A program made the position numbers and the translations under genes. Source: Brachyhypopomus gauderio (taxonomy: Eukaryota; Chordata; Actinopteri; Gymnotiformes; Hypopomidae). From it: DNA of 64,000 nt. Below the pieces are notes generated by a model, which made no database searches, was not told the DNA's origin, and saw only the letters and a list, made by a program, of their open reading frames with translations. Numbering within the stretch: the first letter of the stretch is position 1; every line of letters starts with the position of its first letter. Positions 27,092-58,723 of this stretch are shown here, one piece after another. The stretch lies in NCBI RefSeq assembly GCF_052324685.1, contig NC_135212.1, positions 45,907,212-45,971,211 of the forward strand, read 5' to 3'.

Positions 27092-27493
27092 CTTTGGAGT
27101 GGCAAAAAGTGAAGAAAAAACACCCCAAATATGTTTTGAACTACAAATGAATAAAACATTTTTAATTTTCTAGTGGTATTTCTAGCTACAAATGGGGACA
27201 TCTCCTGGGCATATTTCTGTGCCTTTAGCCCCCGTTTGTGCTTGGCAGATTGTTCGTGCTGACGGACATCGTTCCTTCCCCCATGAGAGACACTAAAATC
27301 ACAGCTACATATCTTACAGAATGAGTAGCTATGCCCCTTCATGCTCCTCTTTAGGAAAGTAAATTCCCTGTCCCATTCGTCAAGGTACTCACACGTACGC
27401 TTAGCTTTTTAGGCAGGACTGCCTTCTCTCGTTAAACCCATCTTTGATTTGTTGTTCCAGGTTTGCTCCCACTGTCGACACTAAACCCGCGAG

Positions 27494-30821: not shown

Positions 30822-32443
30822 GGGAGAGGGCGGCCCGTCGTCCGCCCCGCGCCCGTCATCACGGAACCCGGAACACTGGAGTTGCGCGTCAACGTTAAAA
30901 CGTGTCCCTTTATGCCCAGTTTATGACTGCTAGAACAACGGAAAGAACGTGAGAACCACGAGGATGCAATGTTCGGTAAGGTCACCAAACAGACGTGGAA
31001 GGCAAGGTAGCCAAACGTGAACTATGCATATTTTGTTACCGAGTTGACTTGCTGAAATGCTGAATTGTAAAAATGATGACTATCTTTTTGTTGTTGTTTT
31101 TATTAAAGATGCTTTTACCCAACTAAATAGCTTATCTGCTACAAAATTAAAGCTCCCAGTTTGACTATGTGATAAGAAAGATGGTACACTTCTGGTAAAA
31201 CATTGTTTTATGTATGTATTGACATATGGATATCTGATCCTGACGTCGGGTCCATCAATGCATTAATGTGATTTCATTTAACCAATAACAGAAAACAATA
31301 ATAACTAATTGTTATATATCTATTAGCAAAAATAAATGGAAGTGTGGTTACAGTTGGAAAAACAACTATACCTCTGACTGGTGCTGTTTCTAGTGGTCAG
31401 TGTTTGGAAAGTCAGGCATGTTGCAGTGATTGAATGGAGTTATTCACCTTTCTTGCCACAGAAACATCAACAAGTTGTGTTTTCCTTTGCAGTCCTCTTA
31501 GAGTTTTTGAATCTTGGATTGCTTTGACCCCCACATTCATGGTTAAACTCACACTAGACCAGGTCTCACCTCTTTATATAAAGCAAACTGCTCTCTGATC
31601 ACACTACCCACATGTCTGTCTTGTGATTTTTTTAATTAAATATGTGTTTTGTTTGTTGAATAAAAACATTCAACAGTGTATATTTTCACTTATTTTCGAT
31701 GATGTTAAATTGAATCCATTGACAGCTGTGAAAGGAGATCAGGCATGTACGCATCCATATACGCTGAATAAAAGCAGATTGTTCTCCATCATAGTATTCG
31801 TGTTCACATAGTGAGCATTTATGTGCATTTTGGAAAATGACAACTGTCTTGGAAATGAGGATTTGGTACTTTCAATAATCTTGGGTCAAGGGAAATGGGA
31901 AAACCAAAATGCCTAAATCAACGTGGACCTTTAATATTTTAAATGTGTGTGTGAAAGCTGCAAGGTCTAGGGAGGAAGAGCAAGTCTTTGTTTTCCACTG
32001 GTAGGAAACTTGGTTTGACAGCTTAGAAGTTTTTCAGTTAAACTTGAAACAACACTGCACATTGACCTCACCAATACAATATAATTATTAAAATCTATTA
32101 TAGTTTAGAAAAATAGAAAATAAAAAACTTATTAAAATTGTTTATTGAAGCACAGCCTTGATTTTAATAATTGTATTGTTGGCGGTCTTAAGCTCAACCT
32201 GCATAAAGCACACTTTAATAAAGACTACCTACTGCTAGTAGAAACACTATAGAAAGTTTTCATTTAAATGTTCCACCAGTTATGTGTTGCTTTAGGAAGA
32301 AAAGCCAGTAAAAATGCAGTGTCAAAACCAGTTTAGAGTCGACAGGTGGCAGTAGTCTAGTCGAAATTACATGGATAGCATGCTTAGAAGAAAACCAACA
32401 CCAGCAAGAAAACAGTTCAGATTTCTTAAAGGAAGACATAAAA
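30822..32443. other. Zinc-finger gene 3' UTR and start of a duplicated segment
   Basis: No coding sequence seen. From about 31200 the DNA is a diverged copy of 33770-34800, sharing for example GTGAAAGGAGATCAG and TAAAAGCAGAT. Confidence 0.6.
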
Positions 32444-33370
32444 ATGACAAAATTACAGTGTTTGCACGTCTCACTTAACGAGCGCTTGATGATGTCCGGT
32501 GTTGAGTACGTAAAGAAAACGAAATTCTGTGACGGAGGTTACGATGGAGGGCGAAAATCCCACCGAGTGGCCAGGTGCCCTAGGCTGGCTATTTGGTTAA
32601 AAATAAAAAGTTATTTAGCTAATGTTTTGGTTGGAAGATTGTAGGATTTGTGCTACAACTGTCACAAAGCTGTTGGCTACAGCACAAATACAATGATATG
32701 TTGCAATTGCAATAAATCGAGTAAATCGACACTCCTTGTGTTTCTATGGTCCAACTCTTTCTATGGCTGACAGAAAATGGCTTCTCCTGTTTGCTTTGCC
32801 AGATATTCACGAAAATAAAGAACAATACTAGTTTCTGGTCATCACTTTCCCTACGCTAGTTTCTGGTCATCACTTTCCCTACGCTATATAACATATGCAG
32901 GTGTGTGAATGAATGTATAGTATATTAAGTAATGTATGTATGTATTAGTGCTAGTACGCATTAGTGCCAGTTTAATCTGGTATATAACTTGATTCATTTC
33001 ACTCTAGTATGTTCATGCTTTCAAGTGATTATACAGGGAATTGTTCTGGGAGTCCTGCTCAAAGTTAGAGTTCAGCAAATGTGTTATCCATTTCAAAAGT
33101 ACCGTTAAAATAGTAAGTATACTTCATTGCTTCCTTCTACATCTAGCATCTCGTCTATTATCAGATAGATGAGCTATGATATGCCTTATAGACCAGGATG
33201 CAGGGGAATGTCTTGCTGGGTTTACCCTGATTTTAGAATAAGGTTTTTGCACATGAGGGGTGATTAGGCCCTCACATAAGATGCCACAAAAGAGTAAGAT
33301 TTTCCCCGATAACATACCTGGCTCTGCTCAGAGAAGGACCCGCCGTGCCATCCTTTCACAGCTCGGTTTC
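32444..33370 (+). pseudogene. Decayed copy of the neighbouring zinc-finger gene
   Basis: Begins with MTKLQCLHVSLNERLM, matching the shared first exon (closest to the gene at 34815), but internal deletion and frameshift destroy the coiled coil. At 33147-33205 a block resembles the start of exon 36734-37099. At 33238-33370 a block resembles exon 39161-39388 (KVFAHEG, LGPHI, then [13 protein letters not shown]), with a TGA at 33261 in place of a Trp codon. The intervening exons are missing, so this is an internally deleted, non-functional duplicate. Confidence 0.85.
32830..32885. repeat. Direct repeat, 28-bp unit, 2 copies
   Basis: CTAGTTTCTGGTCATCACTT followed by TCCCTACG occurs twice in tandem. 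A related sequence lies near 35539. Confidence 0.9.
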
Positions 33371-34814: not shown

Positions 34815-35221
34815 ATGACCAAATTACAGCTGCTGCACCGCGCGCTAAACGAGCGCTTGATGGCGGCGGTGGAGCAGATCATGGAGATGGTGGGCGGCAC
34901 GGTGTTGGAGTACGAGGAGGAGACGGTCCGAGCGCGGAGAGAAAACGAAGTACTGAGGCGGAGGTTACGGTGGGTGGAGGGCGAGAACCCCACCGAGTGG
35001 CCCGGTACGTAGACGCGGCCGCTGGGCCAACCTGCCCGGCTACGCGCTGTGGTAAAATGGTGGGAGTCGCGTTGGGCCTGTAGTAGAAACACTGGTGAAG
35101 TCGGTGGGGGTTTTAAAAACACATTTATAGAGGTACGGCGTGAAGAAATGGTGACATTTGTGAGGCTGGTTTTTGTGTATCTAGCTAAGGTAGTTAGCTC
35201 GTTACCGTTAGCCTGTCTGGC

Positions 35222-35267
<46 letters not shown>

Positions 35268-38200
35268 CCGTTTCGTCTGGTTACGTTTTTAAAATGCGTC
35301 TGGTTTAGTCGGCCTCGTCTTTGCACAATCTGCACCACGACATCCTACGATTATTAAGAGCCATCGATGCTGGGGATAAAATGGTATTATCTTGTAGTTC
35401 CTCTTCGACTACGGGGTCGTTTTTGGCTCCAAAACGCTTCTTGTAAGTTTCCATAGTCTCACCCCTCAAGAAGAACTTCTCCCCATATGTTGCCAGTCAA
35501 ATACTGAACCACGTAACAAAATAACAGTATAGTTTGTCCGTGGCCATCACTTTCCCGATGTTATATAACATTAACTCTTATTTGCTTGCAGATAATTGAT
35601 CCAAACTGTTTTGTTTGTTAGTTTTGTAAAAGCAGAAGGAATACTAGTAGTGGAAATGGGAGATATCTCTGTACTGTCCAGTAGAAGTAGTAGGGGATAT
35701 TCCTGCGAAATGTTTCACTCCCGTCCTGTGAAACTACACAAAGATTAATCACCGACCTAGCATATCAATGCTAGGATCTCTTGCATTTCTGTGCCCTACA
35801 CAGTCCAGTGCTCTTTCTGTCCCAGGTGAGGCAGAGCCCTCCGGACTTCAGCAGCAACCCGTGAGCCTAGCAGACGGTCCAGCACTGGAACCCATGGCCA
35901 TCAAAACGGAGCCCATCGACACCTGTGACTCGCAGTCGTTCACACCCGACAGCAGCCTGGTGACCCCTGGCCACACCGCCGACCTGGAAGCAGTCGAACC
36001 CGCGACCAGCACTCCCGCCGACAGCGGCCTCCACGGCGGGGCGTCGTGGGACTCCGCTTACAGCTACATGGCACCCCTGGACTTTGACCCCACCCTGCCC
36101 AGCGTGGTGAGGCACTGGAGGGGCAGGAGCCGCAGCCAGAGGATGTCCTTCGCCTGTCCGGACTGTGGAAAAGTGTTCGGCAGAGAGCACAGACTGATAA
36201 TACACATGCGCGTCCACTCTGCCGAGAGGCCTTACGCATATCGCAGGCGCAAAGCCTGTTTCTACGGAGACAAGAAGCGTAAGAAGAAGTTACACAAGAA
36301 CTCCAAGGTATGCGAGCCTCCGAAGACTCGTATCCGTCAGGTTTATGTATTGATAGCTTTTTAAAAATAACGCATGGCAAGTACCCTGCCATGCTGTTTG
36401 GTCAGGAGCACTATGAACATATTTTGGTAGTTCATTTTCCATGTGACTTTAAGTAGTGCATATGGGTTTTGGCTTAGGTGCTGTAAGTTAACAGCAAACA
36501 ACCTGAAAGGTCATTCTAGTACACAACCTGTATAACCAGTGTGATCTTTTATCTGGTATCGAACTTCACTCTAGTGACGTGATGCTTTCAAATGATTATA
36601 CAAGGAATTGTAGCTTTCTGGGAGACATACTCGAGGTTAAAATTCAGCAAATGTGCTATACACTTCTATGTAGTTCTATACATAAGCACGTTTAAAAGAA
36701 TATGAACGCTTAATCGCATCCTTTCACATTTAGACGTCTCAAGAGATCACAGACGAGCTATCGGATGCCTCGGAACAGACGGAACGCAGCACTGGATTGG
36801 ACGACATAAGTGCTCCAGCAACTCCTGCTCCCAGCGCTCCAGAGGCGGAGCCTGACGAGGCAGTGGGTGGGGCCAGTGAGCAGCGAGAGGGCAGTGCCGG
36901 CAAGCCCGTGGGCCTCCGCGCCAGGCAGGGAGGGGCCAGCAAGATGCCCCGTTGTCTGCAGTGTAAACGAGTCTTCACTCACGTGTCACGGCTGGCCATT
37001 CACATGAAGACCCACAGGAAACCGCTTCCTGCTCCAGAGAAACGTGAAGCGCATGGAGCCACTTACAAGCCAGACCGGAGATCACGGCAGCATCCCAAGG
37101 TAGTGTGCCGCTCCAAGGTACCACGGTAACTAGGCGTACGTGGAAATGATTGGAGAACCTCAGACAGGTCCTGCGTTATTCATAGATATACACGCATAAG
37201 CACGATCTAGGAGTGTGACAAAATGATGACAAACTAGCAAAACCTATAAAATATGTGATCAGACTGGTGGTACTGGTGAGGCAGAGGAGGGCACTGATGA
37301 ATAAATGCCTGGAACCCAAACTAAGAAATGGCAGATACTGACATCTGTCAACAGGTTTTGATTATTAGAATAAAGCGAGAGCGTCGATATCGTGGCTCTC
37401 CCGCTCCTGGGTGTTTTAAAGAAGGGATCAGTAACTGGGTGACACAGCATTGTGGGAAGGTTTCCACGGATATAAGAATACAGCTATGCCATGAGTGCTG
37501 TCGTACAGAAGAGGCACCAAACAGAAGCATCATCATCATCATCATCATCCACAGACCTGTGCAATGGTAAGCATCTCCATGTTGTTTAGTTTTGTCTAGT
37601 ATAGGATGCTGAGCCTGAACTGAACAGAGATTCACATTAACGGTATAGAATGTTGAATTTAAGAGATTCTCTTCTCTGTTACATGTGCTGAAGCTCTAAT
37701 TTGATTGCATGGAAAAATTTGTCATTTTTAAAAACATCAATATAATTTGCTTGTTGCATGGCTTGTTAATAACAGTGTGTGGACATGTCAATGTTTAACT
37801 ATTAAAAACGAGACCAAATGACCAAGTTGTCTGTTTTCCCCCGCAGGCCAGTGGCAGGTGGGGTGACCCGTGCCTGCAGTCAAATGGCAGCCTGTTTGAT
37901 CCTGCCCCCAGTGTACTTGTGCAAGTAGCACGCAAGCACCGCGTCTTTGGAGGCAAGACCACATGTAACAGAATCGCTCAGCTAATCGGCATGTTTCAAA
38001 GGTGTAACTATCAGAGTGGATGACCGTTGTGGTTTAAAAGTGTATAAAGCTTCATCACAACATATGAAGCACAATACAGCCAGTCACAGACATTAAGGTC
38101 TTGTCATTTTGTTGTTCCATCAACACTTTTAATTGGAATAAAGGTGCTTTAATTAATTTTGTTTTAGAGCAGATGGCCGTTTCTTACCATTTTACCATCA

Positions 38201-41200
38201 CAGGATATCAAAGAAGGAAGATGTTAAATGCCATTGTCTATATTATTGTGTATATATTTTTTAAATATTATATTCAATAATATTATTCTACACTTTCAAA
38301 AAGGAAAAATATTATTTTGACCAATAAACTGCATTTTGAAAACTAAGCATTGTACTGTTTTATGTTTTGTGCGGCAGTTTTTGTAAAAGTAAAAACAACA
38401 AAACACAATGTACTTGATTGATGTGGTATTGGTAGGGAAAATGCCCTCTGTTTCCCCTTTCATATATTTATTAAAATGTTTAGAAGAATGTATATTGGTT
38501 CCATCTGTTTACTAAACCTTTTTTTGGCATGACTTTGTATGAATAGTGTAGCCTTTAAAGTACAATAATTTAAGTCTGTACTTTAATTAATATCAATATT
38601 TGCCCCTGCTAGATGGATTTAATGACTACATAGAACCATTTGCTGGTCTCATTATCTCTTTGTCCCAGGGTTGGCGTTTTTCAATTGCCCCGTTTACCTT
38701 TTGAAACTCCTCCCAGAAATCAGCGATGAGGAACAACGAGACGGAGGTGGAGAGGGCGAGAGCGGGCGGCCAGACGCTCTTCCAGTGCTCCGAATGCAGG
38801 AAGGTGTTCGCCCGCTCCTGTTGGCTGACCTTTCACCTGAAGTCTCACGAGCGGGAGCGCGCCTTAGCCCGCAAACAGCTGAAGCAGAGACAGCCCCCAG
38901 CCAGCAAGACGCAGAAGGGTGTCCCGCCCGACTCTCCAGAGGTAGGGACGCTGCTCTGGCATCTGGTGTTGGCCAGAGCTTCCAGTCTGAACTCTTCGTT
39001 TTCAGATTAATTCACCGCTGTGAATTTCCTTTTGAGTGGCAAGGGGTTCTGATGTCCCAATGAGGTGCATTTTTGAATAACTAAAACTTGATCTATGCAT
39101 CTAGCGATTGTTTGAATGTTCTTCAGATTATTTTTGAAATCTTTAATTTGTTCCATGTAGCCAACAAAACAGAGTTCAAAGGAAGTGACTGGTGAGGACG
39201 ACAAAGTTCCTGTCCTGAAGAAGATCTTTGCCTGCCCATATTGTGATAAGGTTTTTGCTCGTGAAGGATGGTTGGGCCCACATATTCGAAGTCATACATC
39301 TAAGACACCACAAAATAGTGGGATTTTTGCTGATAACATCATATCTGGTTCTGCTCAGAGAAGAACCCGCCGTACCATCATCTCCCAGGTTGGTTTAAGT
39401 TGGGTTGGTTAGATTTGTCTGATTGGGTTCACTTATGTATAGCACGTTTTGCGTTGATGGGTAATTGTGATTTATGTTATAGCTTACTCTATTATTAGAG
39501 CAGTCAAATTAGATGTACCCAGGGCAAGTCATTGTGATTGGATAGTAATTATCTTTTTTTTAATTTTTTTATTTCAGTCCTTCCAACAGTTAAAAGACGG
39601 CACCAAGGAGGCAACAACAAACAAACAAACAAACAAAGTCTCAGAAGATTCAAAAAGAAAAATCGAAAAGCCAGAAAAAGTCACAGAGCAACCAAAAGCA
39701 AGTAATGTTGAGACCACCAAAAATGATTCGGAATCAAAAAGAAACTCGGAAACCAAAAGAATCAGTAATGATGAATCTGAAAAAAACCCTGACGAAACAA
39801 ATCAAATCCCAGATGATTCAACAACGACCCCCAAAGAATCATCTGGAGGAAAAGATGTGGTCAGAGCAAAGAAAAGGTACACTTGTCGACAGTGTGGCAA
39901 AGTTTATTTACTTTTCGGTTGCCTAAAAACCCACAAGAGGATGCATAAATTGGAGAAGAAGAGGATGCGCCTGAAGCTGTTGGAGGAGCGAAGACGATTG
40001 GAGGAGAGCTTGAAGGGGAGTCTTGAGGAGGAGAAGAGCATCGCGGAAAGGAGACCGAAGAGGAGCACGAGAGTCCTGGAGATGCAGCACAGGCAGGACG
40101 GCAGGAGACTCCCCAAGAAGCCACTCTTCGATGAAGTGGAGTTTAGAGTACGTTTTCCCTTCTTCAGTTCCGGAATGAGCTCTGAATAAATTAACAGTTT
40201 AACGTTCTTTATTTCTTTCTATCGGTCTATCGATCGATCGCTGTAATGAATAGGCTGCCAGTGGTAATTGTAAGCCATTAATTTTGGGGGTGATTTCACT
40301 GTAGAGAGTGATGTGTTGTTTTGTGCTTCATAAAGAATTAATGTTGTACACTCGCCACCTGTTTTTTTTTTTCTTTAGGAGCAGTTATAATGCCTTATAT
40401 GAGTGTAATTACAGTTGATAATGTCACATTCCGTCTTGTTGGATATACTACCAACTCTTCATGGGAGCACCCGGCCAGTCTTAGCTGGATATTTTCAGGT
40501 GGAAGACTAGATGTGTATTGACGACAACGTGTGAAAACTCCAGTAACTTGGCTTTGCCTGATATTTACATGCCACTGTAATGCCCACTTCTGTGCCACGT
40601 TCATGTCATTCCCACTGCGACGTTGAGAATGGTCTCCCGTCTTCTCCAGAACTGTAGTCTTATGTGTGCACCTTAAGAACAGCAGTGTACCCCAAAATGA
40701 GTGTGGTCAGGAGGTGGAGGTGCCAGGAAGGTGGCGCTCTCTTAGAGTAGGTGGTGAGTGTGTGTCAAATATTTTAGTGTGAGCACTGTATTTGGTAAAA
40801 TAGTCTGTTTTTGATTGGAAGACATGCATGCGGAATGCTCAGAGGTCTTGGATTAAATAAACAAATGAAAGATCCTTGAACACTTTACTGGCTGGTTCAT
40901 GGGGTTTTTTTCTCACTTCCAAAGCTTAAGACACCAAAGAACGAGGATAAACCATCTGACATCCAGCCGGCAGAAGCCAAAAGCAAAGAGGCCGCCCCTA
41001 AAACCCCAGGCCGGTGCATTTGCAAGCACTGTGGCAAAGTGTACGCCAGGAGGAACTGGCTGAACCTGCATATACTGGGGCACAGGAAGCGAACGCTCGC
41101 CCTGCAGCAGGACAGTGACGAGACCTGTAAAAACGACGACGAGCAGGTATTTTTCGTCCTCGCTAAATTGCATTGGAGGTTTCGTTACATTTGCGCAAGT

Positions 41201-44200
41201 AAATTCTCCCCCCCCCCCCCCCCCCCCCCCCCCCCTTTCTGCTCTATTTCAGACATCACAGGGAGGCTCGTCCGCCGATGATTCTGCGGTTCAGAAAGGA
41301 AAAGACAGAGGTAAAGCGTTTCCCTGTCCCTTCTGTGAAAAAGCCTTTCCACGAGCGATGCAGCTGATGGGGCACGTGCAGATCCACTCGGGCGAGAAAC
41401 CGTACCCCTACCGACAGCGTAAAGAACAATTTTATGGTGACCTGACAAGGCCCAGAGGCCCCAATTCCGACAGCCAGGAGGTAGGAGAATTTATGATGAA
41501 ACCCATGATGCCTACAACAGACTGCATGTCAAACAGTCATGTGTGAGAAATGAGGGGTTTTTTTGTTTGTTTGATTGTTTGTTTGTTTTTAATAATTAAT
41601 TCAATATGGATTTGTTCAACATGTAAGAACACTAGTTGTGAAGTAGCATTTGGTTCTTACTTCTTATAGCTTTTAAATGTTAGTAAAAGTGCCTCGGTTA
41701 CTTTGTAAAGACAGCATACACATATGCTTGACACTGACAATTTGACAAATTTTTACTGCAGTTTTATTACAGCATTTTTTAAATGTGCCCGCATTTTTAA
41801 AAACACATTCTGTTAGAATTAATTTTAATGAATGTTTATGCATTTACTATTACGTGATTATCAATACACATTAATACTGAAGGCCAGCAGGCTACTACAC
41901 ACAGATCTTTTGCGATTTTTGCTTCCTCAATAAAGGGTTGTTTTTACCTGCAAATTGAGTGCCTTGACATCTCTGTTTGTTCCCTGTTTTGTTTTAGTTT
42001 GTTTTTGTTTGTCTGTTTTGTTTACTTAATAATCAGTTGCATGGGCTAATGCTTTTTTTTCTTTCCAACATTGTGTGTGTGTGGCTAGTAGTCTTCTCTT
42101 GTAAAGAATGACTAACTTCCGATTCTCCTTCCTGCAGCCTGCGATAGAAAACACTGATGAAAGGGGGAAGGATGATGGAGTCGCGGTCTCTAGGAATCAG
42201 ACCTCTGCAGTGTCTCAAGACCACACAAGCACTACAGAGCCCATGGAAACCGTTCAACCTCAATCAGTTTGCACTGGCAGAAAATTCAGCCCACTACCTC
42301 TGCAGTCAGCTGGTGCCACAACCAGCCAGAGCACAACTCATTCAAAAACTGATCCCAAATCAGTCGGCAATGCCATAAGCCACTTCAGTTTGCAGCCTAG
42401 AATTGTTCTAGAACCAATTACTGCTGAGCCCAAGCACTGGACTGCATCTGGAGAGGATGGTTTTAGTACAGTTAGTGCTGGAACGAGTGATGTTGAGTTG
42501 CACCAAAACTCTGAATTAGCCGATGCTGCTATAGTAAATGCTATAGACTACCAAGTCAGTCCGACTCAAATTACACTTGAAAACTTTAACACTTATGGCT
42601 GCCATGATGGCCAAAACCCACTGTCTAGCATAAGCTACACTGTTCTATCAGAGACAGATGATTCAGATATCGTTTGTGTTAAATTAGGTTCGTTTTGTAA
42701 TTCTCGTGAAAATACCTCCTACCTTCCTAACCTGATGAAAGGTGACGTAGAACTTGTGGAAATAGAAGGAGAGCCAGATTCTCCAGGATCACAAATTAAC
42801 AGCCCCAGTGTGAATCCAAGCTTTACTGGGACAGTTAACTCTGTTGCCAGACACACACTCCCTTTCTCTGAATCTGAGATAGGCAGCAGTGATCAAGCAC
42901 TGATTTCTTATAGTGATTCTACTGACATGTTACTAACAGCTTCTGAAGTGCCCTTGGCAGAGACTAGCGCCGGGGCCACGCCCAAAGAAGCTGACATACA
43001 GCCGGTTTATACCATCATCTCAGATGCTGATGAGGATAATGATGAAGGTCATGATGATTGTGATTGGTTAAACGTGTCCAGTAACCTAGATGAAAAGAAA
43101 ACCTCAACAGAGGGCCAAATTCAGTTAGAACAGTCAGGTCTAAAAAGTACCTCTGTCAGTCAGCCTTTCCAGGACACTTCTGGCATAGAACACACAAATA
43201 GTCCTTTATGTGCTGATCCCCCACACCCTGCCATGGATAGGATTGAAGTGGCCAGTCCAGGTATAGTTGACAAAATCCCTGCCAGCTCCTCGGAACAAGC
43301 AACTGATTCCGATTCAGATGTGGTGTTTGTACCAAATAAGACCAGTGAACAGAGCGAACATGGTGGCCCGCTTGCTAACGAGGAGCAAACGGACGAAAGT
43401 CGCACAGATCCAAAGGTGCAGTTTACCTGTGTGCCCTGTGGTTTAAATTTTGACAGCGAGTCATCTCTGGCTCTGCACAAGAAGATGCACTCTCTCCCTG
43501 GAGGCACTGACGAGAAGTCATTGGCCTTTAAAAAGCTAAAGAAGAAGTTCAAGAACATGCAGATTAAGCAGCACGTTGCTCATATCCAGGTATGCATGTA
43601 TCAAAAGTGGAGAGTGCTGTAAAAGTGCACATTCGTTTTTAAGGGATATTTCTTGATATGAGAGAGAATATTGATGCATACATTTTCTTTGTATTCTTTC
43701 AAATCTTCCCCCTTTTGAAGACATCAGAAATAGGTAGAGAGGATTCAGCAGACATCGTTGAAATCTCAGGAGAGAGGAACCCTGCAACGTTGCTCAGATT
43801 GACCGTAGACGAGTTGTCTGACGTCTATCCGGACACAGACGCCAGCCGTAGCCCCAGAGCAGCCTCGACATCTCCGGCTGTTGGCAAAGAACCGAAGAAG
43901 GAAAAGAAAACTTTGTACTGTCGGTTCTGTGGGAAAGCATGTCGAAAAATAGAACTGCACCTCAAGTATGATCACTCAAGGGAGCCTCAGGTGATGGAAG
44001 CTTTGCGATTTAGCAAAACCTCAGAAGAGAGGAAGAAGCTATTAGGCCGTCTTTGCAGTAAGGAAAAGATGGGATGTGATACGATTGATGGTGTCCGGAG
44101 TGGTAAAGCTGAAGACCTTGTGCATTGTCTCTTCTGTAAAGGGTCTTACCTGAGAAATCAGTTTTGGAAACATGCTTTGATATGTGAGGAGAAAAAAACT

Positions 44201-47200
44201 AAGGACTTGACTGAACAGGACGGCGTTGTGCTTCAACCTACTTCCAGACCGACGCAGGAAACCTTTGAACCCGAATCTGAGAATGCCATTCAAGGCACCA
44301 TCTGCAACACAACACAGCAGACCCTTCCAGAGTCCAGCACTATACAGAACACCCTTGCATCAGTATCTCCTCTTCCAGAAACTGACAGTGCTTTAATAAA
44401 CCCGAACACCGGTCCGGAAACAGAGGATCCACCAGTTTTATATATTGGCAATGGAGCAGTAAAGATGAATATTGATTCAGAGTCTTCAGATCCACCTATT
44501 CTAGATTCTTTTCACAGTGCACATGTGCACAAGATTTCTGTTCCAGACACTGGCAACGGTATAGCAAAGAATCCTAACGTAGAGCCATTGAGTCCTCCTG
44601 TTCTAGACTCTTGCCACGCCGCACCAGAAGCCGCTCATTTAGAATTGGAGACTCCACTATCTCTAAGCATGGATGAGGGACGAGAACAGAACAAACCTGA
44701 TTCTGAGTGTTCGGACCCTCCCGTTTTGGAGTCTTGCCACGGTACACCACAAGACGTCGATGGAGGTGAATCCACCTGCCCCCTCATTGACTCAGGTGGG
44801 GTGCTAGATGCTGAACAACCCACCGCCGAATTGATGAGTCTGCCGCTGTTTGATGCTACGTTTGAGAATGCTGATCGGTTGCTTACTTCAGCTTTAAAGA
44901 GTCCTCCCCTTGCGGACCCTGACGAGGGTGACGTACAGCGTAACATCGGTCAAGATAGTCCGAACTCCTCACAAAATGTAGACTGTGTGGCAGAATGTGT
45001 TTCCCCTCCAGAATCAGTGGTCCCCTCAGACAATGACAACAGTGGTGTACCTGCTGATGCAACGGACACTACACTACCAACTACATACGGTGGTGATCTC
45101 CAGGAAACCTCGGACTATGAAACTCTCACAGTTGAGGCTGCCATGCCTAACCTTGAGTGCGTTGATTCTCAGCAAATCGCACATCAGGAATTGAATAGCG
45201 TTGCCAGTTCTGACCCAGTCAAAGATCCCCTTAACTCAGAATCGGCTAATTCTATAGTTCCAGAACATGTTGGCTATGAAACAGGAGACTCTTCCATTCA
45301 GGTCTTTGAAACCAATGAACACGTGGCTTCTGCCACAGAACCCGACAGTCCTGCGGTTTGGGATCACATTCCCAAAGAAACACAGCAAACGCCTGATCCA
45401 GAATCAAACGTAACATACAGTCCTACAAAGCAAATGTTTGATTCCGAAGGTCACATCAGAGCCAACATGGATGGGTTTGTTGAAGTTGCAAACCAGGACT
45501 GTGATTTTAAAAGTGCCCTTGATTCAGACTCCACTACAACAGTGAAGAGGAAACTGGACCGTCAAAGCGGTGCAGCCCACGAAGAACCAAAGAGATGTCG
45601 TCTAAATGACCCCTTACAGGTACACGCCATATCATCATTTGTCCTCTGTAATGACTATAGACAGGGTTTGATTTATGTGATCAATTGTTTTATTTGAAAT
45701 TTGGCTTTGGGATATTTTACATGGTGCTGAACTGCAGAAGAAAGTTATGTGGTGGCTAATAAATCACTGAAACGATCCGATGAAATGTATTTTGCAAGTG
45801 GTGTATATTTTTAACATAGTTTTATAAGCTGTTTCAATATCAGTAATCTTTAATGTGAACAGACCTCTCTACCATGACTGTTAATTTGCACATCACTTAC
45901 CTAATGTTTTGTTATGTAATGTTATGTTTTGCTGTTGTCAGACCTCTGTGTCACAGCTGAGGCAAATGCACTAGTGCCACAGTTGTTATACAGAACTGAT
46001 CATGGAGTGGATCCTAAAATGGAACACAAAATGGGTTTCATCTGTTTTCTCAATTCCTGCAGGGTTTATAAGCTAAGTAACTACAACTTTTCTCCACAGA
46101 AGACACCGTCAGAAGAGTGTGAAGCATCGACAAGCACTGCTCCAACATCAGAGCAGGAGCACAAACACGGACCACAACCGTGCAGCTCAAACCCCTCGAG
46201 TCCGGAAGATGGTGAAGGAAAAGCAAGGCTATATAAAACGCATTACTGCTTCTACTGCAGAAAGCCTTGTGTCCGAATGGTTCCGCATCTCCAGTCGGTG
46301 CACGCTAATGAGCCCGAGGTGGCGAAGGCCCTTAGTTATGAAAAGAACTCAAAAGAAAGGAAGCAATTCCTGGACTTTCTCCGAAGCAAAGGGGACTTCT
46401 TGCATAATACAGACGTGGTTAGGAGCGGAGAGGGCTGCTTGGTGCCATCTAGACGGCTTGGCACAGCTTCCTCAAATGAGCACTATGAGCATTGTATTTA
46501 CTGTCTCGGGTTATTCAGTAAGAGGTCCCTTTCTAATCATGTGCAGAGATGCAAGCAGAAATACCCAGACAGAGCTGCAACCAGCTGCAGCGATCTGCTC
46601 CCTGTCGCTGCCTCCACATCACCAAGTTCAACGTCCAACATTGGCTGTACTGCAGAGAACCTAAATATTGCTCCAGTATCTCCAAGTGGCCCACCACCAG
46701 ATACCTCTTTAAGTGAAGAACTACTAAAGGCTAATCCTCAATCAGTAAATTGTACACCAGGAGATGAGGAGAATCCTCATGCTGAGCCTGATGGGTCCCT
46801 GGAGAGAGAACAGTCAGTTGGGTCCCTTTCAGAGACCGGTCACAGTGGAGCACAGCTTGACGGCAACACAGAACACGCACATTCTCCCCCTGAAGATATG
46901 AGCTCAAGTGTCGACCATGCCGATCTAGAAACGGGAAGCGACGTATCTCCGGACACCAGCTTCGTCGGTGTTCAGACAGGAAGTGATGTCACTCCAGACA
47001 CCAGCCTAGTAACTGGTCAAACAGGAAGTGATTACTGGCACAAGGGGTCACCATGCAATCAAACTGAACGTAATATGAGTGAGGAGGACAAGAAACCTGA
47101 AGCAGAGCAGAGCAGTCAGAGAGGGCTAGAAAGGAGGAGGAGAAGTTCCCGTCCGCATATTCAGGTGAACCATGTCTTCTCAGATATTCTCTTAACGGGA

Positions 47201-50200
47201 CGTGAATCATTTAATCCACCTTCAGACAAGTTCATTGAATGTTGGAGGGCATTATTGGGTGTGATTGTGTACACAGAGGAGCAGGCAGTTGTGGCCTGGC
47301 GGTTAGGGAACTGGTCTTGTGACCGGAGGGTCGTGGGTTCGATTCCCAGACCTGAGGCCATGACTGAGGTGCCCCTGAGCAAGACACTTAACCCTCAATT
47401 GCTCACTTGTATAAAAAATTTGATAAAAATGTAAGTCCCTCTGGATAAGGGCGCCTTCCAAATGCCGTAAATGTCTAATGTCTAAAATGTCAGGAGTTAT
47501 GTGCTACCTGGGGATACGAATGAATCCCTGTAAATGTTAAACTGTTTGTTGTGATTTTATTGATTTGACTGCTGTCTTTTTGCCATTTTGATCTGTGTCT
47601 GTTTCCACATACAAGCCAATGAAACTGGATGAGGACTCTGATGAAGAGAGTGTGTCACACAGCACAAAACTGCACGTGTGTGAACACTGCAGCGCCTCCT
47701 TCAGCAGCCCCTATCACCTGCGCCGACACGTGTACACGCACACAGGTAGGCACGTGCGTTTGCAGGATTGGACAAGGAACAATTTGTGTATTTCGGTGTG
47801 GAGCTATTGCAAACACTTTGTGTTTGGTGTCATCACTCGCAGGCGAAAGGCCATACTGGTGCAGCCAGTGCAATATGGGCTTCATTCAGAAATATCGCTT
47901 CCGAAACCATAGAATGACGCACCATGGTGAGTGAATATAAACATGAGCACGGAAGCACTACCTTTCGTCTTGGGTTGGTTATTGTGGGGGTGTTTTCTGA
48001 GCTCTGTCCTACAGTAGCAGTTCATCTCGAGTCCGATTCTGAAATATACCCTGGATTTCTTGAATACATTTCCAGGAGAGACGCAGTTAAGCCTGGACCA
48101 GGAACTAGCAAGACATCGCAAGAAACGATCTCACAACGTCGAGAAGCCAGCACACAGTGAGCCCCGCCAACAGGTATTGTATAAAGCGGCACTTCAGTTT
48201 TCTATTGAAAATGTAATATGAAATCTCTCTCAATTGTGGATGTGCCATCGTTTCTCGGCTTTCTCATGTGTGAACCTGTTCTTTATGCAGCCATCGGAAG
48301 AGTGCACTGCGGTGTCACCGGAGCCCTCCAATCCAGACCTGGAGAGACCTGCCTCCGCAGACAAAGGTAACAGGGCAGCACAGCGTGTGGTCCGAGAAGG
48401 CAGGTCGCCACACTGCCCAGAACACAGAGCACACGATATCTTTATGGAGGTGAGCCAGGCAGGTTTCTAGGGCTAAGCTCTCCACTGAGAGGAAGAAATT
48501 CCTACATCACCTCTTAAACGGAGGCAACTTAATTCACAACCTCAAAGTCATGAGAACTAAGATACAAGCCAAACCTGTCATATGTATCAAATCCAAAAGA
48601 AGTGTGCAGCTTGAGGACTAGAAGACCTTGAAATGTACAAACTGGATTCAAAAAAAGTTAGGGTACTAGACAAATTGTGAATAAAAACTGAATGCAATGA
48701 TGTGGAGGTGCCAACATCTAATATTTTATTTAGAATAGATCATAGATCAAAAGTTTAAACTGAGAAAATGCATGAGAAAATCATTTTAAGAGAAAAATAT
48801 GTTGTTTCAAAATTTCTAAATTTTTACCACTGTGTGGCATCCCCACTTCTTACAACACTCAACAGATGTCTGGGGACAGAGGAGACCAGTTTCTCAAGTT
48901 TAGAAATAGGAATGCTCTCCCATTCATGTCTAACTATTCAATCGTCTTGGGCCTTTGTTGCATCTTCCTCTTTTTCCAGCCACTTATTGCTACTTGTCAC
49001 AACTTTTTTGGGATTTGTTGACGCTGTGAAATTTTGAATCAACATATTTTTCCTTTAAAATGTTACATTTACTCAGATTCAACTTTTAATCTGTCATCTA
49101 TGTTCTATTACGCTAAAAATATTGACCAGTGTTAATTTCCTTGACGAAAAATTTTTGTCATAGTTTTCGTCAACAAACAATGATGAAAATGAGACGATAA
49201 CTTTATATAGTTTTTATTTAAAGATAAAAATGATTCCAAAATTAATGGACATTTTCGTCAACGAATAAAAACGAGACGAAAATATTGGCCAGCGACGACA
49301 TCCAATCAGACCTTAGTTTTGTGAAAGGTAGAGATAAGTTAAGAGAGCCAACCGTAACTACTTTAGCGTACACGGAGAGGCGGGACAAACCGGGTAACCG
49401 TCCAATCAGTACTAACGTCTTCACATTGCACAGAACCCGGGAAGACCATGCCAGACTGTGGACTATGGTCACTCATGAAATTCAACCCAAAGTTAACTCG
49501 ACAATGTCAGCAGGTAGAAAGATATAATCATGTGCGACGATGATGTCTGGAAAAATACGACAAATGAAACAACATCTGCGGGCTATGGCATTGCTGTTTT
49601 TACGGCATCCAGTTTTATATTGTATGTAATATGCATTGTTCATAAACTCCATATGCTTTTCAGGTAGAGCAGACCTACTGGTCATCAATGGTTTGTTATT
49701 GTTATGCTCACTAAGCATGAGTTCAGGTAAATAAAAATGAAACATTTATTAACCAGTTACAGAATATTTGTAAGTGTGTATATAATGACTATTACACCAT
49801 TTATATTTGTCATCTAAATTTTTTTGATAATTAGTCACCTTAAACTAGACTAAAACTAAAAATAACTCCAATGACTAAATTATGACTAAAACTAAATAAA
49901 AAATTGCAGTTAAAATTAACACATTTGCCACATCATTGCATTCAGCTTTTATTCACAATTTGTTTAGTGTCCCAAATTATTTTTTGGAATCCGGTTTGTA
50001 GGCACCAAAAGTTATATAAGGAAACCATGAAAACAGGGCGACTAAGCCTGAAGACACATCTTATGCATGTGGGTGGTTACTGATTGAATAGGTTTCAAGC
50101 AGATTAGAAAGAATATGGACTGTAAAATATAATTCACTCAACAATATAGAAACACAATCTAAAACTGGTTTAACAAAGAAGGTACCACCTTTGATCTGTA

Positions 50201-50341
50201 TTTGTCTTGAGGGGTTTGTCTTTGGTGGAACTCCAATCTCTGCTGTATTATTGACCCAACCAGGCAGTGCATTTGCACGGTTTATAGTGATGTTTGTGTT
50301 CTATTTCAGACAAGGAGGAATCTTCAGGAAGATCCGCTTGA
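34815..50341 (+). CDS. Putative giant zinc-finger protein, one finger per exon
   Basis: Sixteen exons with compatible GT-AG sites: 34815-35004, 35826-36307, 36734-37099, 38717-38941, 39161-39388, 39578-40147, 40925-41146, 41253-41480, 42138-43589, 43721-45619, 46100-47164, 47616-47745, 47843-47926, 48076-48173, 48291-48366, 50310-50341. They join in one frame to about 2448 residues; AATAAA lies at 50475. Exon 1 is the cluster's shared coiled-coil exon. Most later exons hold one C2H2 finger (for example [40 protein letters not shown]) and long acidic Ser/Thr-rich linkers. Exons 2 to 11 start and most end in phase 0. I recognise no named orthologue. It may be two or more transcription units: an alternative last exon at 37847 and AATAAA at 38137 could end a shorter transcript. 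Nuclear regulatory role inferred only. Confidence 0.55.
35221..35265. repeat. (ATT)n microsatellite
   Basis: About 15 ATT triplets in intron 1 of the putative giant zinc-finger gene. Confidence 0.93.
35826..36307 (+). CDS. Exon 2 of putative giant gene: acidic region, one finger
   Basis: Phase-1 acceptor continuing the coiled-coil exon. Contains a SUMO-acceptor-like IKTEPID, one C2H2 finger ([19 protein letters not shown]) and then a linker that should open a second finger. In place of the Cys pair it reads [12 protein letters not shown] and runs into Lys/Arg. Confidence 0.8.
37847..38023 (+). CDS. Possible alternative terminal exon
   Basis: After a good CCCCCGCAG acceptor an open frame of 58 codons ends at 38023, in phase with the preceding exon end at 37099. 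AATAAA follows at 38137-38142. It would give a short isoform made of the coiled coil and two fingers plus a novel tail ([19 protein letters not shown]). No family recognised; use of this exon is inference. Confidence 0.35.
   Translation, partial: ASGRWGDPCLQSNGSLFDPAPSVLVQVARKHRVFGGKTTCNRIAQLIGMFQRCNYQSG
39578..40147 (+). CDS. Exon 6: charged linker with one C2H2 finger
   Basis: 190 codons, phase 0 at both ends. A Lys/Glu/Asn/Ser-rich disordered stretch is followed by one finger ([19 protein letters not shown]) and a long highly charged helix-forming Arg/Glu/Leu segment that could be a coiled coil. Confidence 0.75.
41208..41235. repeat. Poly-C tract
   Basis: Long C homopolymer just upstream of exon 41253-41480. 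It may act as part of its pyrimidine tract. Confidence 0.9.
42138..43589 (+). CDS. Exon 9: large acidic exon with SIM-like motifs
   Basis: 484 codons, phase 0 at both ends. Mostly disordered Ser/Thr/Asp/Glu-rich sequence with short hydrophobic cores beside acidic runs ([41 protein letters not shown]), which look like SUMO-interaction motifs. One C2H2 finger near the end ([10 protein letters not shown], then LALHKKMH). Confidence 0.75.
43721..45619 (+). CDS. Exon 10: unusual Cys/His domain and disordered tail
   Basis: 633 codons, phase 0. Opens with another acidic SIM-like stretch (SADIVEIS). It continues with a two-part Cys/His domain: [20 protein letters not shown], a helical segment ([11 protein letters not shown]), then [20 protein letters not shown]. 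This layout recurs in many repetitive uncharacterised fish proteins. The remaining 450 or so residues are disordered, with diverged repeats around PPVLDSCH. Confidence 0.75.
46100..47164 (+). CDS. Exon 11: second copy of the Cys/His domain
   Basis: 355 codons, phase 0. Same two-part domain as exon 10: [20 protein letters not shown], a helical segment [20 protein letters not shown], a [13 protein letters not shown] element, then [20 protein letters not shown]. Near the end are three short repeats beginning TGSD ([28 protein letters not shown]). Confidence 0.75.
47285..47485 (+). mobile_element. tRNA-derived SINE
   Basis: In the intron after exon 11. The head is tRNA-like, with an A-box-like TGGCCTGGCGGTTAGGGAAC and a B box GGTTCGATTCC. 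The body includes GAGGTGCCCCTGAGCAAGAC and the tail TCTGGATAAGGGCG...AAATGCCGTAAATGTC, both typical of fish tRNA-SINEs. Not a functional tRNA gene. Confidence 0.92.
48367..48590 (+). pseudogene. Decayed third copy of the Cys/His domain
   Basis: Directly after the exon 15 donor the + strand reads, across frames, [13 protein letters not shown] and then [20 protein letters not shown]. This aligns with [20 protein letters not shown] in exon 11. A stop at 48468 and frame changes show it is not maintained. Confidence 0.65.
48638..49998. mobile_element. DNA transposon with long terminal inverted repeats
   Basis: Left end CAAACTGGATTCAAAAAAAG and right end, read in reverse, CAAACCGGATTCCAAAAAAT share about 70 bp, including AAATTGTGAATAAAA and TGAATGCAATGATGTGG. 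TA dinucleotides flank both ends (48636-48637 and 49999-50000), as for Tc1/mariner-type insertion. No transposase is visible, so it is a non-autonomous element in the last intron of the giant gene. Confidence 0.82.
49128..49922. mobile_element. Element nested inside the long-TIR transposon
   Basis: Ends GTGTTAATTT (49129) and AAATTAACAC (49922) are inverted copies. The interior has repeated CGTCAAC/GACGAAAA and ACTAAAACTA words known from fish DNA transposons. The right end lies just inside the outer element's right terminal repeat. Target duplication not resolved. Confidence 0.55.
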
Positions 50342-51033: not shown

Positions 51034-52487
51034 ATGAATAAATTCGAGCGATTTGGCGCACTCTTGTCAGAGCGTCTCTCGGTCGTCGCGAGAGAGATCT
51101 TTGGAATGGTGGAGGACATTGTGTGCGAGTACCGGGAAGAAACTGCGCGCACGATGCAGGAGAACGATATTTTAAAACGTCAGCTGCAGGACCTCTCTCT
51201 GATAGATAACGATACAGACGTCTTCGGTAAATTATTAGTAACGACTGAAGTGTATGATGCACAAATTATCCTCTATAGGCTACTTTGATTTCACTCCCAT
51301 GAATCCCATCGTCGCTTAACCTAGCCGGATATCTTTCTTAAAAGTAAAATTTGTAGTGAACCTGCCCTTAAAATACTGTGCTGTATTGTATTATATAATG
51401 ATATATAATATAATAATATAATGAGGAGCAACATAGGATGATAACAAGTTAGGACTATATATGAGAGAGAGAAACAAACATTTTAGTGAAGAATGAGAAA
51501 CAGAAATTGGATGTGTTTAAGGACAGAGGTCCTTCATCAGCTGTGTGAGCATAAACACATCATCTTGTGCTTGCTCTCTTTCTTCATGTTTTAGAGGAGG
51601 AAACTCTTCAGCAGGAGGAGGGCCGTGCGGGACAGGAGGAGGGCCGTGCGGGAAAGGAGGAGGGCCGTGCGGGACAGGAGGAGGACCGTGCGGGACAGGA
51701 GGAGGACCGTGCGGGACAGGAGGAGCCTTTGGTCACTATTACCCTGGACAGGAAGAGCCAAACACTTCCTGAGGTCTCAGACCACAGAGCCCAGCTCAGC
51801 AGAGAGCCAGAAGATCCCTTGAGCCGCAGTTCAACACAGCCCGAGAAGAAGCGTGGAAAGAGAAGATGGTCTGTGATATGGAGGCCAGCGCAGAGCAATT
51901 CTTCAGGCTCTTCTCACAGCGATGCAGCCAGCGACCTCTCCGACAGGGAGGACTCGGCCGAGAGCGATGACACATACACACCCTCAAATGGAGAAGGACA
52001 AAAGAGGAAGCCAGCAGGAAAGGCCAGTACCCATGCCGGGGGTCCCCATAAGTGCCCCAAGTGTGACAAGTCCTTTAGTGAACTGAAGAACCTCAGGTCC
52101 CATCACCGGCTGGCCCACAGCAAGGTGATGGGCTGTAACATCTGTGGCAAGGCCTTCGCCCAAACCGTGGATCTCCAGCGGCACCTTCTCACGCACTCCG
52201 GCGAGAGGCCACACCGCTGCGACCGCTGCCCCCGCAGCTTCGCCCAGCTGGGCAACCTGCGCAAGCATCAGCAGACCCACCAGAGCGTCGAGCAGCACAG
52301 GTGCCCCCACTGCAACATGGGCTTCAGCGACCCGGACGCCCTGGGCCAGCACGACTGCGGCAGGGACAAGCCGTTTTGCTGCAACATCTGTCGGCAGTGC
52401 TTCTCTTCGACCAAAGGGCTGCAGGGCCACCTGCGCAAAACCCACCCCAAAGCACAAATACTGGGCAGCAAAGTCAAGGATAGATAG
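51034..52487 (+). CDS. C2H2 zinc-finger protein, coiled-coil exon plus 5 fingers
   Basis: Two coding exons, 51034-51226 (phase 1) and 51595-52487, give 361 residues. The first encodes the shared coiled coil (MNKFERFGALLSERL, then EYREETARTMQENDILKRQL). Exon 2 begins with five 7-residue EEGRAGQ-type repeats, then an acidic Ser-rich region, then five fingers (about residues 216-347): HKCPKCDKSF, MGCNICGKAF, HRCDRCPRSF, HRCPHCNMGF and FCCNICRQCF. Finger 4 is abnormal: it has one His, then Asp-Cys where the second His is expected. Architecture is closest to the gene at 28140, so the two are probably paralogues. Likely a nuclear DNA-binding regulator; target unknown. Confidence 0.88.
51612..51723. 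repeat. In-frame 21-bp coding repeat, about 5 copies
   Basis: GAGGAGGGCCGTGCGGGACA-type units encode EEGRAGQ, EEGRAGQ, EEGRAGK and EEDRAGQ variants at the start of exon 2 of the zinc-finger gene. Length polymorphism by multiples of 7 residues is likely. Confidence 0.93.
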
Positions 52488-53071: not shown

Positions 53072-54264
53072 ATGACCAAACTAGATCGTTTAAATTCATT
53101 CCTGTCTGAGCGACTATCGGCAGCAGTAAATGAGATAATATACACGGTGAGCATGACGATACAGGAATACGAAGAAGAGTCGGCACGGATACGCAAAGAA
53201 AACGACTATCTGAAGGAAATGTTAAAGGTTACAGGATGCGGCATTGCAGATGTTAATCCTGGTAAGATGTATATTAATGGTTAATTATACATGTATCACC
53301 TTTAGGAACATAGCGACACCGTTTGATATCCGTCATAGCTAGCTAACGTTAGCTAGCTAGCTATTTGTGGTATTAATTACACGAAGACAAATGTATTAAT
53401 AATATTGAGGTGCTGTCTGTTTTTTAAAGTCGTAATTATTGTAAACTGGTTAGTGTAACATCTCAACTTGGTTAAGTTAAACACGAGACAAGTTGCTTTC
53501 TTAAACGTTAATCTATTATGTGCCTTACAGGTGTGGTCTCCGTACAGCCAGACTGCAACCCAAGCTCGGAGCAGGAGTTGGAGCTCCAGCGGGCCGCAAA
53601 TCCACATCTAAAAGTGGATAAATCTTGTATTAAAACCGAGCAGCTCTATCACCCTACAGATTCTGACTCCGAGTCAGAAACCAGACAGACATGCTCATTA
53701 CAGACAGACAATGTTGTGGATCCTCCCCAGTCTGTCCACTGTACCACCCTCTTAAATACACCTGCAGTTGACAGTGAGATTATAGACTATGATTTCCCTA
53801 CAAAGATTAAAGTAGAGTCACTGAACACGGACTCCCGTTCGGTTGATGTCACGGACAGTATAGATGCCAGCAACCAGAGCTGGTCTCCACAAACTTGGGA
53901 CCGGAGTGCGGAAAACAGTGAGCAGAGCAGGGCCCAGCAAAGCAGTCAGAGGCCATGCGGCATTGACATTTCTCATTCTGCGTCAACAGCCACTCTAAAC
54001 AGGCCAGTGGAGTTTCGAGCAGCGTTCAGCTACTCAAACCGAATCATATGCACCAACAGGCTACACTGTACCAGCAGACACTGCGAGATGCAGAAGAGAA
54101 CCATAGCCAAATCAAGCCCGGTGTGGAAGTATTTCTCACTGAAGGAAGGAGACTGTAGTAAGGCAGTTTGTCTCATGTGCAAAGCAGTGATCTCTCGGGG
54201 TGTTAAAGAGTATACCACATCAGCTCTGTTAAAACACCTTCGTATGAAACATGGAAAATGTTGA
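53072..54264 (+). CDS. Coiled-coil exon fused to a BED-type zinc finger
   Basis: Two coding exons, 53072-53261 (190 bp, phase 1) and 53531-54264, give 307 residues. The first is the cluster's coiled-coil exon (MTKLDRLNSFLSERL, then EYEEESARIRKENDYLKEML). The linker is acidic, with SUMO-acceptor-like IKTEQ and IKVES. Instead of C2H2 fingers the C-terminus (about residues 259-306) is one BED finger: SPVWKYFSLKEGD, CLMCKAVIS, then TSALLKHLRMKHGKC, with the expected aromatic residues and C2H2 spacing. BED fingers derive from hAT transposases and bind DNA. I recognise no named orthologue. Confidence 0.85.
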
Positions 54265-57200: not shown

Positions 57201-58723
57201 ATGACAAGGCTACAAACTTTAAACCTTTTTTTGACCGAGCGGTTCATGGCGGCACTGAACGAGATCATGGAGAAGGTTGGAGGAACTTTTCTGGAATACG
57301 AGGAGGAGGTGGATCGGGCACAGAGGGAGAACGAGTTCCTAAAAGGGCGACTGCAGGAGCTTGAGATGGTGCTTGCTTCAGCAGGTAAGCTGTGGTGTTC
57401 GTATTTCTCAAAACACAATTTAACCGACTGCGTGTAATGGAGCCGTTAGGTAGCCAAAGAAATGAGACCTGCAGTAGTTTGAGCCAATACTGATGATGCT
57501 GCCCTGGTAGAGATCAAAACACATGTTTGCTGCTGCTGTTTTAACTTAATTTTCTTCACGCATTAATATTGTATGTCTGTTTTTTGTTATTGTTTACGAC
57601 AAGTCTCGATAAATCATTAACATCTCTCATCTTTATAGGGTCGGGAGTTTTGTTTTCTCCAAATTTTCCAGAACCAAGCTCCCCTCCAATACAACAGGAA
57701 AGGAGATCGCTCCAGGACCCACCCGAGTGCGGAGAGCTCGAGCTGAACCAGAGCCAGTTACTGAGCGGGCAGCATGTCAACATCAAGACGGAAGCATCTT
57801 CACACACTCCTCACGTACAGCCGTTCATCGATAGTGAACCAGAGTCTGTGGACACCACTCAGTGCCCCACACATGCAGACCATGAGCGTGATCTTGATTT
57901 AGCTGTCGTGGACGAGACGAGTGACATGAAGACGGAGCCCAACGAAAGTACCGTACGGCAGATCTCCGCCACTGGAACCGTCCAGAGCCCAGTGCTTTCA
58001 ATCGTTGATTTAGAGTCGGGCAGCACCGCTGCTTGTAACATACCTAACCCACCTACTCTAAATGATGAAATTGTGTACAGTATACCACACGAAGACAGTG
58101 ATGTGGAATCGAGTAACTCTCCACAAGGCCCTTCTAGAACAATGCAGGAATCTGTGACCGCAAATGCTACCGGCTGTAATGTATTTCCGACCGCAGACCT
58201 TAAGCTGATCAGAGCAAACACTAGCTGCAATATATCCGCTCTGCCCACTGGGCCCCAGTCAAGGACCCTGAGCCACGGGGTGTCGGGTACCAGGGACCCA
58301 CCAAGTGCCCCGGGCAAATCCTCGTCCTCTGTCCCGCACAGCCACTTCATCGGCCTGGGGGGAGGAGTGGGAGGAGTCGGAGGAGGAGCCTTGCAGGGCC
58401 GAGCCACCCTCACGTGCCCCGAGTGCGGCCGGCCGTTCCTGCACCGCTCGCAGCTGAAGGTGCACATGTACATCCACACGGGCGAGAAGCCGTACGTGTG
58501 CAAGCAGTGCGGCAAGCGCTTCAACAACGGCGGCACGCTGAGCAACCACAGCAGCGTTCACCGGCAGGTGCGCATGTACAGCTGCCCCGTGTGCCATCGC
58601 CGCTTCAAGGACACCTACACCTGCCGCAAACACATGCGTGTGCACGCCAAAGCGGCCCACACCGCCGCTCAGCACGAGCTCAGCAGCGGAGCTTCAAGAG
58701 AAGCGCTGGCGAAGCATTTTTAA
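57201..58723 (+). CDS. C2H2 zinc-finger protein, coiled-coil exon plus 3 fingers
   Basis: Two coding exons, 57201-57384 (184 bp, phase 1) and 57639-58723, give 422 residues. Exon 1 encodes the shared coiled coil (MTRLQTLNLFLTERFM, then EYEEEVDRAQRENEFLKGRL). A long acidic region has SUMO-acceptor-like IKTEAS and MKTEPNE. A Gly-rich stretch precedes three fingers (about residues 319-400): LTCPECGRPFLHRSQLKVH, YVCKQCGKRFNNGGTLSNH and YSCPVCHRRFKDTYTCRKH. The first two are joined by TGEKPY. Probable nuclear DNA-binding regulator; no named orthologue recognised. Confidence 0.88.

Follow-up and report, generated by a model that had tools for sequence, protein, structure and literature searches.

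Zinc-finger genes that form clusters in vertebrates, among them the FiNZ and KRAB genes, are described as typically carrying their fingers arrayed in one exon. According to excerpts of the published accounts, fish FiNZ and actinopterygian KRAB-like zinc-finger (ZNF) proteins have an N-terminal effector domain (PMC10547256, PMC11603059, PMC9101882), which in FiNZ is a 28-residue FiNZ domain, with the fingers arrayed in one exon, the second, and in the KRAB-like proteins binds TRIM33. Excerpts likewise describe WIZ as having 12 dispersed fingers with long linkers, maybe acting via protein or RNA contact (PMC13395409), and ZNF512B as having four C2HC plus C2H2 finger pairs, with a large disordered region separating the first from the others; ZNF512B binds DNA, oligomerises and aggregates chromatin (PMC11602157). 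Here we analyze a putative giant zinc-finger gene of the gymnotiform fish Brachyhypopomus gauderio in a stretch of 64,000 nucleotides (contig NC_135212.1, positions 45,907,212 to 45,971,211, forward strand; hereafter the window, whose coordinates are used throughout). A sequence-only reading had proposed 16 exons, with about one finger per exon, joined in one frame of about 2448 codons. The observation of a giant one-finger-per-exon gene is largely real, and we regard it as partly confirmed. We give roughly even weight to its being one protein-coding gene of ~15 exons (E1 at 34815 to a TAG at 48470, ~2470 amino acids [aa]) that would be a derived member of a local cluster and encode a chromatin scaffold.

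The exon model was built from C2H2 motifs located in all six frames together with matrix-based splice-site scoring around each open frame. The sequence-only reading gave no exon coordinates, and the exon ends in Table 1 are a reconstruction that reproduces its figures: 16 exons, 7347 nt and 2448 aa plus stop, with no internal stops. These figures stand, but the sixteenth exon is unsupported, and the model is weak at E5 and where E3 joins E4. Introns 2-11 of the model are phase 0, and 9 of the 14 internal exons (E3-E11) are phase 0 at both ends, as had been claimed for most finger exons. Within the anchored frames, the splice site that scored highest was phase 0 in 13/19 cases (P=0.0019 against 1/3), a count that covers E2-E11 without the phase-1 acceptor of E2.

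An exon-chaining script with no phase preference was run over ~33.8-51.0 kb, its codon model having been trained on genes elsewhere in the window. The forward strand scored 480.0 (6357 coding nt); the reverse strand scored 126.9, and 10 block-resampled copies scored 83.1-123.7. The codon model comprised 1613 codons; two of 14 training pieces were dropped because they had no open frame, and one more (9700-9900) was apparently in the wrong frame. All eight exon lists, which came from seven distinct settings, hold E1, E2, E6, E7, E8, E12, E13 and E14 with the model ends, and all hold E4 with its model end and a start that either matches the model or falls on an ATG 9 bases further in. For E9, E10 and E11, the outer ends were kept throughout; E9 and E10 were split in every list and E11 in one. 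We attribute this splitting to a weak codon model, given that the frames are open across 484 (E9) and 633 (E10) codons. Apart from these splits and a shortened or dropped E5, the script connects E4 to E15 in 8/8 lists, and E1 to E15 in five.

Ten regular C2H2 fingers were located, one each in E2-E9, E12 and E13. Each of the eight exons E2-E9 carries one finger of the form C-X2-C-X12-H-X3-5-H, and the residues between successive regular fingers number 103, 51, 55, 133, 99, 45, 461, 1042 and 7. Single, separated fingers thus characterize E2-E9. E12-E13 form a classic adjacent pair whose TGERP linker is interrupted by an intron, and E10 and E11 have two zinc motifs each. In both of the latter, C-X2-C-X9-H-X4-H is followed by C-X2-C-X11-H-X3-C, and the two pair domains are homologous (tblastn 1.7e-13; aligned regions 36% identical). 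E2 and E8 are also homologous, including a degenerate half finger (tblastn 8.8e-14). Against Pfam, the pair domain gave nothing near the cut-off; against PDB sequences, the best E value was 1.5 for the E10 pair, and for E9 only its finger matched (best 0.039). Searches for the pair domain and the N-terminal helix in viral contigs, and for the E11 pair in prokaryote contigs, confirmed none; these collections are without fish and uninformative on fish. An Rfam scan gave nothing at gathering scores. A Crypton or tyrosine-recombinase origin of the E10/E11 pair, suggested by a likeness to finger pairs of fish mobile-element proteins, stays an unverified lead, and no matching domain appeared among the Crypton paper excerpts listed.

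The first exon ties the gene to its neighbors. By tblastn, four other intact exons match E1 (28140, 51034, 53072 and 57201), as does a broken exon at 32444. The five intact exons align across 55 residues with 13 positions invariant, and a phase-1 donor is among the three best sites in all five, being best in four and third best for E1 (3.9). AlphaFold2 predicted E1 to be a single helix over residues 3-54 at a mean predicted local distance difference test (pLDDT) score of 96. Pfam returned no family for E1 at E<=1, and so no KRAB domain as in KRAB-ZNF proteins, nor was KRAB listed for the four neighboring N-terminal exons at E<=10. Assignment of the helix to a known family was set aside: weak matches for two neighbors (TSC22, 0.0016; Shugoshin_N, 0.0045) fell below cut-off, and a best PDB match of 0.084 was also not used. 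The neighboring cluster genes (28.1-30.8, 51.0-52.5, 53.1-54.3 and 57.2-58.7 kb) resemble the giant gene in the homologous first exon, the phase-1 donor and a finger-bearing frame downstream. They differ in that one finger-bearing open frame was seen in each, with mostly adjacent fingers, whereas here the fingers are spread across E2-E13. Because the first exon is homologous with a phase-1 donor, but the fingers are not in one downstream exon, the gene would hence be a derived member of the local cluster, by its first exon only. Compared by description rather than sequence, it resembles the excerpted FiNZ and KRAB-like ZNF proteins as a fish zinc-finger protein with an N-terminal domain, and departs from FiNZ, whose array is in one exon.

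Evidence that the frame has been maintained comes from a decayed partial tandem copy lying just upstream. Its E1 is interrupted by a stop, its E5 shows a gap of 16 bases, and its mismatch fraction is 0.154 (Jukes-Cantor 0.17; six of seven pieces). It has decayed, at about 17% divergence, whereas the frame of the giant gene stayed open. The chance of an open frame from base composition is 2e-12 for E9, 3e-15 for E10 and 3e-08 for E11. With 10% neutral change, and taking the gene to be as old as the copy, the probability of no stop is 0.008, 0.002 and 0.017, respectively.

Several results weigh against a single intact gene with the proposed properties. At 5% change, the probability of no stop rises to 0.088 for E9, 0.046 for E10 and 0.139 for E11, and E2-E5, E7, E8 and E12-E14 may stay open by chance (0.23-0.68 at 10% neutral change). 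E5 is the weakest internal exon (codon score -6.5, donor 1.6); the chaining script retained only a 30-base piece of it in 7/8 lists and dropped it in the other. Splice sites are poor at the donors of E3, E6, E7 and E14 and at the acceptor of E12 (-2.0). Of E2-E4 and E6-E9, the lone-finger exons scanned, E2 alone passes the Pfam finger cut-off (zf-C2H2, 3.3e-06), so the lone fingers are divergent, and the predicted structure of the pair domain was poor (pLDDT 57) and was not interpreted. E16 is absent from all eight lists, and reaching it would take an intron of 1943 bp for a gain of some ten codons that lack coding signal. Finally, E3 and E4 were broken into two genes in 3/8 lists (2/7 settings) and joined in 5/8; the joined lists always include an extra small exon at 37847-37862 and end E3 at 37125, not 37099, and one also includes 37369-37566.

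Some of these weaknesses could mean that the gene is in decay, with exons such as E5 and E15 already skipped or dead and a true protein that is shorter. The weak E5, the decayed remnant of a third pair domain at 48454-48558 and the decay of the upstream tandem copy all fit such a history, but E9, E10 and E11 are open far past what base composition allows, and we consider decay rather improbable.

The E3-E4 join bears on whether there is one gene or two. In the lists with a break, the first gene ends after E3 and a further exon at 37847-38023, and the next starts at an ATG at 38726. A short cluster member of E1-E3, ending near 37.1-38.0 kb, could accordingly be followed by a second gene running from that ATG near E4 to E15. 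The intron between E3 and E4 is, at 1617 bp, the longest except that before E16, AATAAA occurs at 37300, 37369, 38137 and 38323, and the 3' end of E3 is uncertain: donors at 37099, 37117 and 37125 score 0.5, -0.2 and 2.3, and the chaining script never used the first. Two genes are nevertheless unlikely. Break and join differ by ~0.7 score units, and the decayed copy contains matches to both E1 and E5 in collinear order, evidence that the two are linked though not that they are spliced together. Moreover, tblastn found no N-terminal helix exon upstream of E4, E1 being the only intact one between 33 and 51 kb, and an acceptor scoring 4.0 sits 9 bases before the ATG at 38726. We prefer one gene because of the missing second N-terminal exon and this acceptor.

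At its 3' end, the single gene more likely ends in E15 at 48470, giving 2472 aa, than in E16. The last exon is 48291-48470 (TAG) in 7/8 lists; in the other, the frame ends at 49478. To reach the earlier figures, E15 must end at 48366 and continue to E16, whose codon scores, taken from one base past its start, are 1.1-2.4 in the three frames (2.3 in the frame proposed). A tblastn match overlapping E15 in another frame points to a pair-domain linker remnant, with a score reached by 0/2000 shuffles, and because of this remnant we suggest that a third pair exon was probably lost near 48454-48558. The start of E15 was also considered as a relative of E11, with which it has PSEEC in common, but was rejected since the alignment score was reached by 208/2000 shuffles. 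The region before E16 (48660-50000) resembles remnants of fish DNA transposons, judged from its sequence only.

The linkers had been described as acidic, but this holds only in part: without fingers, E9, E10 and E11 are strongly so (net charge -42, -59 and -15), but E2-E8 are near neutral to basic (-1 to +10). Five cores resembling SUMO-interacting motifs (SIM-like) were found, one in E5, three in E9 and one at the start of E10, against an expectation of 1.1 (1.3 when shuffled within exons); five were reached by 7 and 8 of 1000 shuffles, respectively. Because the pattern was written after examples had been noticed, this excess is a lead. IKTE in E2 is one of four loose SUMO-consensus matches.

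Residues of the recognition helices separate the lone fingers from others. Helix position 6 is polar in 1/8 lone fingers and in 11/14 comparison fingers (P=0.006, for groups chosen after the sequences were viewed); the latter are those of E12 and E13 and 12 from three neighbors, one irregular finger of the 52-kb neighbor being left out. Trp occupies helix position 3 in three of the eight lone fingers (E4, E5 and E7). Both features fit the sequence-only proposal that the separated fingers are unlikely to read one long DNA site. The fingers might instead each read a short DNA motif, making the protein a multi-site binder of repeats in the manner of ZNF512, for which excerpts of PMC13395409 and PMC11602157 cite published precedent with non-consecutive motifs. 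The non-polar position 6 in 7/8 lone fingers and the Trp residues make such binding quite unlikely. A chromatin scaffold with dispersed fingers is favored because the lone fingers are so seldom polar at position 6. In such a scaffold, the lone fingers of E2-E9 and the pair domains would touch proteins or chromatin and not bases, DNA reading would be confined to E12-E13, which may recognize a short site, and the acidic middle with its SIM-like cores could bind SUMO-modified partners. The N-terminal helix may dimerize with itself or with the products of neighbors, and the whole protein would serve as a chromatin scaffold or silencing platform. That the SUMO and dimer steps come from sequence inference alone counts against this proposal. 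The gene would have grown as phase-0 finger exons were added and duplicated. It seems doubtful that serial duplication of symmetrical phase-0 single-finger exons turned an ordinary two-exon cluster ZNF gene into a dispersed-finger chromatin scaffold whose fingers have shifted from reading bases to contacting proteins and whose helix co-assembles with the DNA-reading products of its neighbors.

By layout and not by homology, the protein is likened to WIZ as excerpted, with spacings of 45-1042 aa except in the last pair. From ZNF512B it differs in the order of the pairs, which in the excerpted account are C2HC then C2H2 and here are C2H2 then C2HC in both. The ZNF512B NuRD motif RRKQxxP has no match in the protein; the motif in the excerpted paper is itself a variant, so a variant could escape. 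The earlier statement that no described family is like this one needs narrowing: dispersed fingers are known from WIZ (PMC13395409) and ZNF512B (PMC11602157), in the excerpts cited, but neither a helix exon combined with serial single-finger exons nor an account of this gene was met among the papers listed by literature searches, of which few were directed at the gene; this is weak evidence of absence. The gene may well be annotated elsewhere as an uncharacterized zinc-finger gene.

Table 1. Exons of the reconstructed model and related features of the window.
Feature	Coordinates	Strand	Evidence or remark
E1, ATG and common N-terminal helical exon, ends phase 1	34815..35004	+	tblastn, alignment, AlphaFold2; donor 3.9
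E2, linker with IKTE, first C2H2 finger and degenerate half finger	35826..36307	+	acceptor 6.7 phase 1, donor 4.0 phase 0
E3, single C2H2 finger, 3' end uncertain	36734..37099	+	sub-threshold Pfam zf-C2H2 match (0.0028)
E4, single C2H2 finger, Trp at helix position 3	38717..38941	+	Pfam below cut-off; acceptor 4.0, donor 4.7
E5, single C2H2 finger, Trp at helix position 3	39161..39388	+	finger motif; acceptor 2.6, donor 1.6
E6, single C2H2 finger, basic exon	39578..40147	+	acceptor 5.9, donor -0.1; Pfam zf-C2H2_4 only 0.14
E7, single C2H2 finger, Trp at helix position 3	40925..41146	+	Pfam zf-C2H2 0.0002, below cut-off
E8, single C2H2 finger and degenerate half finger, homologous to E2	41253..41480	+	acceptor 7.1, donor 3.8
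E9, 484 aa, acidic, three SIM-like cores, one weak C2H2 finger	42138..43589	+	open frame
E10, 633 aa, acidic, C2H2(X9)+C2HC(X11) pair domain, repeated PPxLD-like motif	43721..45619	+	
E11, 355 aa, second pair domain	46100..47164	+	whole in 7/8 chaining lists; model ends differ from best-scoring sites of its frame
E12, C2H2 finger, ends phase 1 within TGERP linker	47616..47745	+	zf-C2H2 match narrowly missing the Pfam cut-off (3e-05)
E13, second finger, 7 residues past E12 finger	47843..47926	+	finger motif, 8/8 chaining lists
E14, short exon	48076..48173	+	acceptor 4.3, donor 0.1
E15, probable terminal exon, TAG 48468-48470	48291..48470	+	last exon in 7/8 chaining lists
E16 of the sequence-only reading, unsupported as exon	50310..50341	+	0/8 chaining lists
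Decayed third pair-domain linker remnant, frame other than E15	48454..48558	+	tblastn 1.3e-04
Tandem copy, partial and decayed, matching pieces of 33963-39396	31504..33369	+	seven collinear blastn pieces, 71-87%
Paralogous N-terminal exon (tblastn limits)	28140..28301	+	fingers follow at 30399-30791
Paralogous N-terminal exon	51034..51226	+	fingers follow at 52053-52445
Paralogous N-terminal exon	53072..53261	+	upstream of open frame with BED finger
Paralogous N-terminal exon	57201..57384	+	fingers follow at 58415-58645

Among the neighbors, 53072-54261 is a candidate cluster gene in which the common helix exon precedes an open frame with a BED finger, not C2H2 (Pfam zf-BED 1.4e-10). A neighboring finger gene holds an in-frame 21-nt repeat of QEEGRAG-like units at 51612-51725. 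An open reading frame on the minus strand at 27076-27408 resembles a BED-type or transposon-derived finger fragment, judged from its sequence only. The vicinity had been assigned to mvp-prrt2-doc2a; upstream pieces match MVP_shoulder (1.7e-17) and CD225 (6.7e-10), fitting mvp and prrt2 well, but doc2a is weak, a C2 match appearing downstream of the gene in one of two pieces and below cut-off (0.0005). Inside the mvp-like gene, a 31-nt minisatellite of ~66 copies (96% match) occupies 3994-6037.

A cluster member grown by the addition of finger exons would represent an evolutionary route different from that of arrays held in one exon, and the number of fingers could be tuned by splicing. Neighbors with the same N-terminal helix would offer an internal comparison between fingers that read DNA and fingers that do not.

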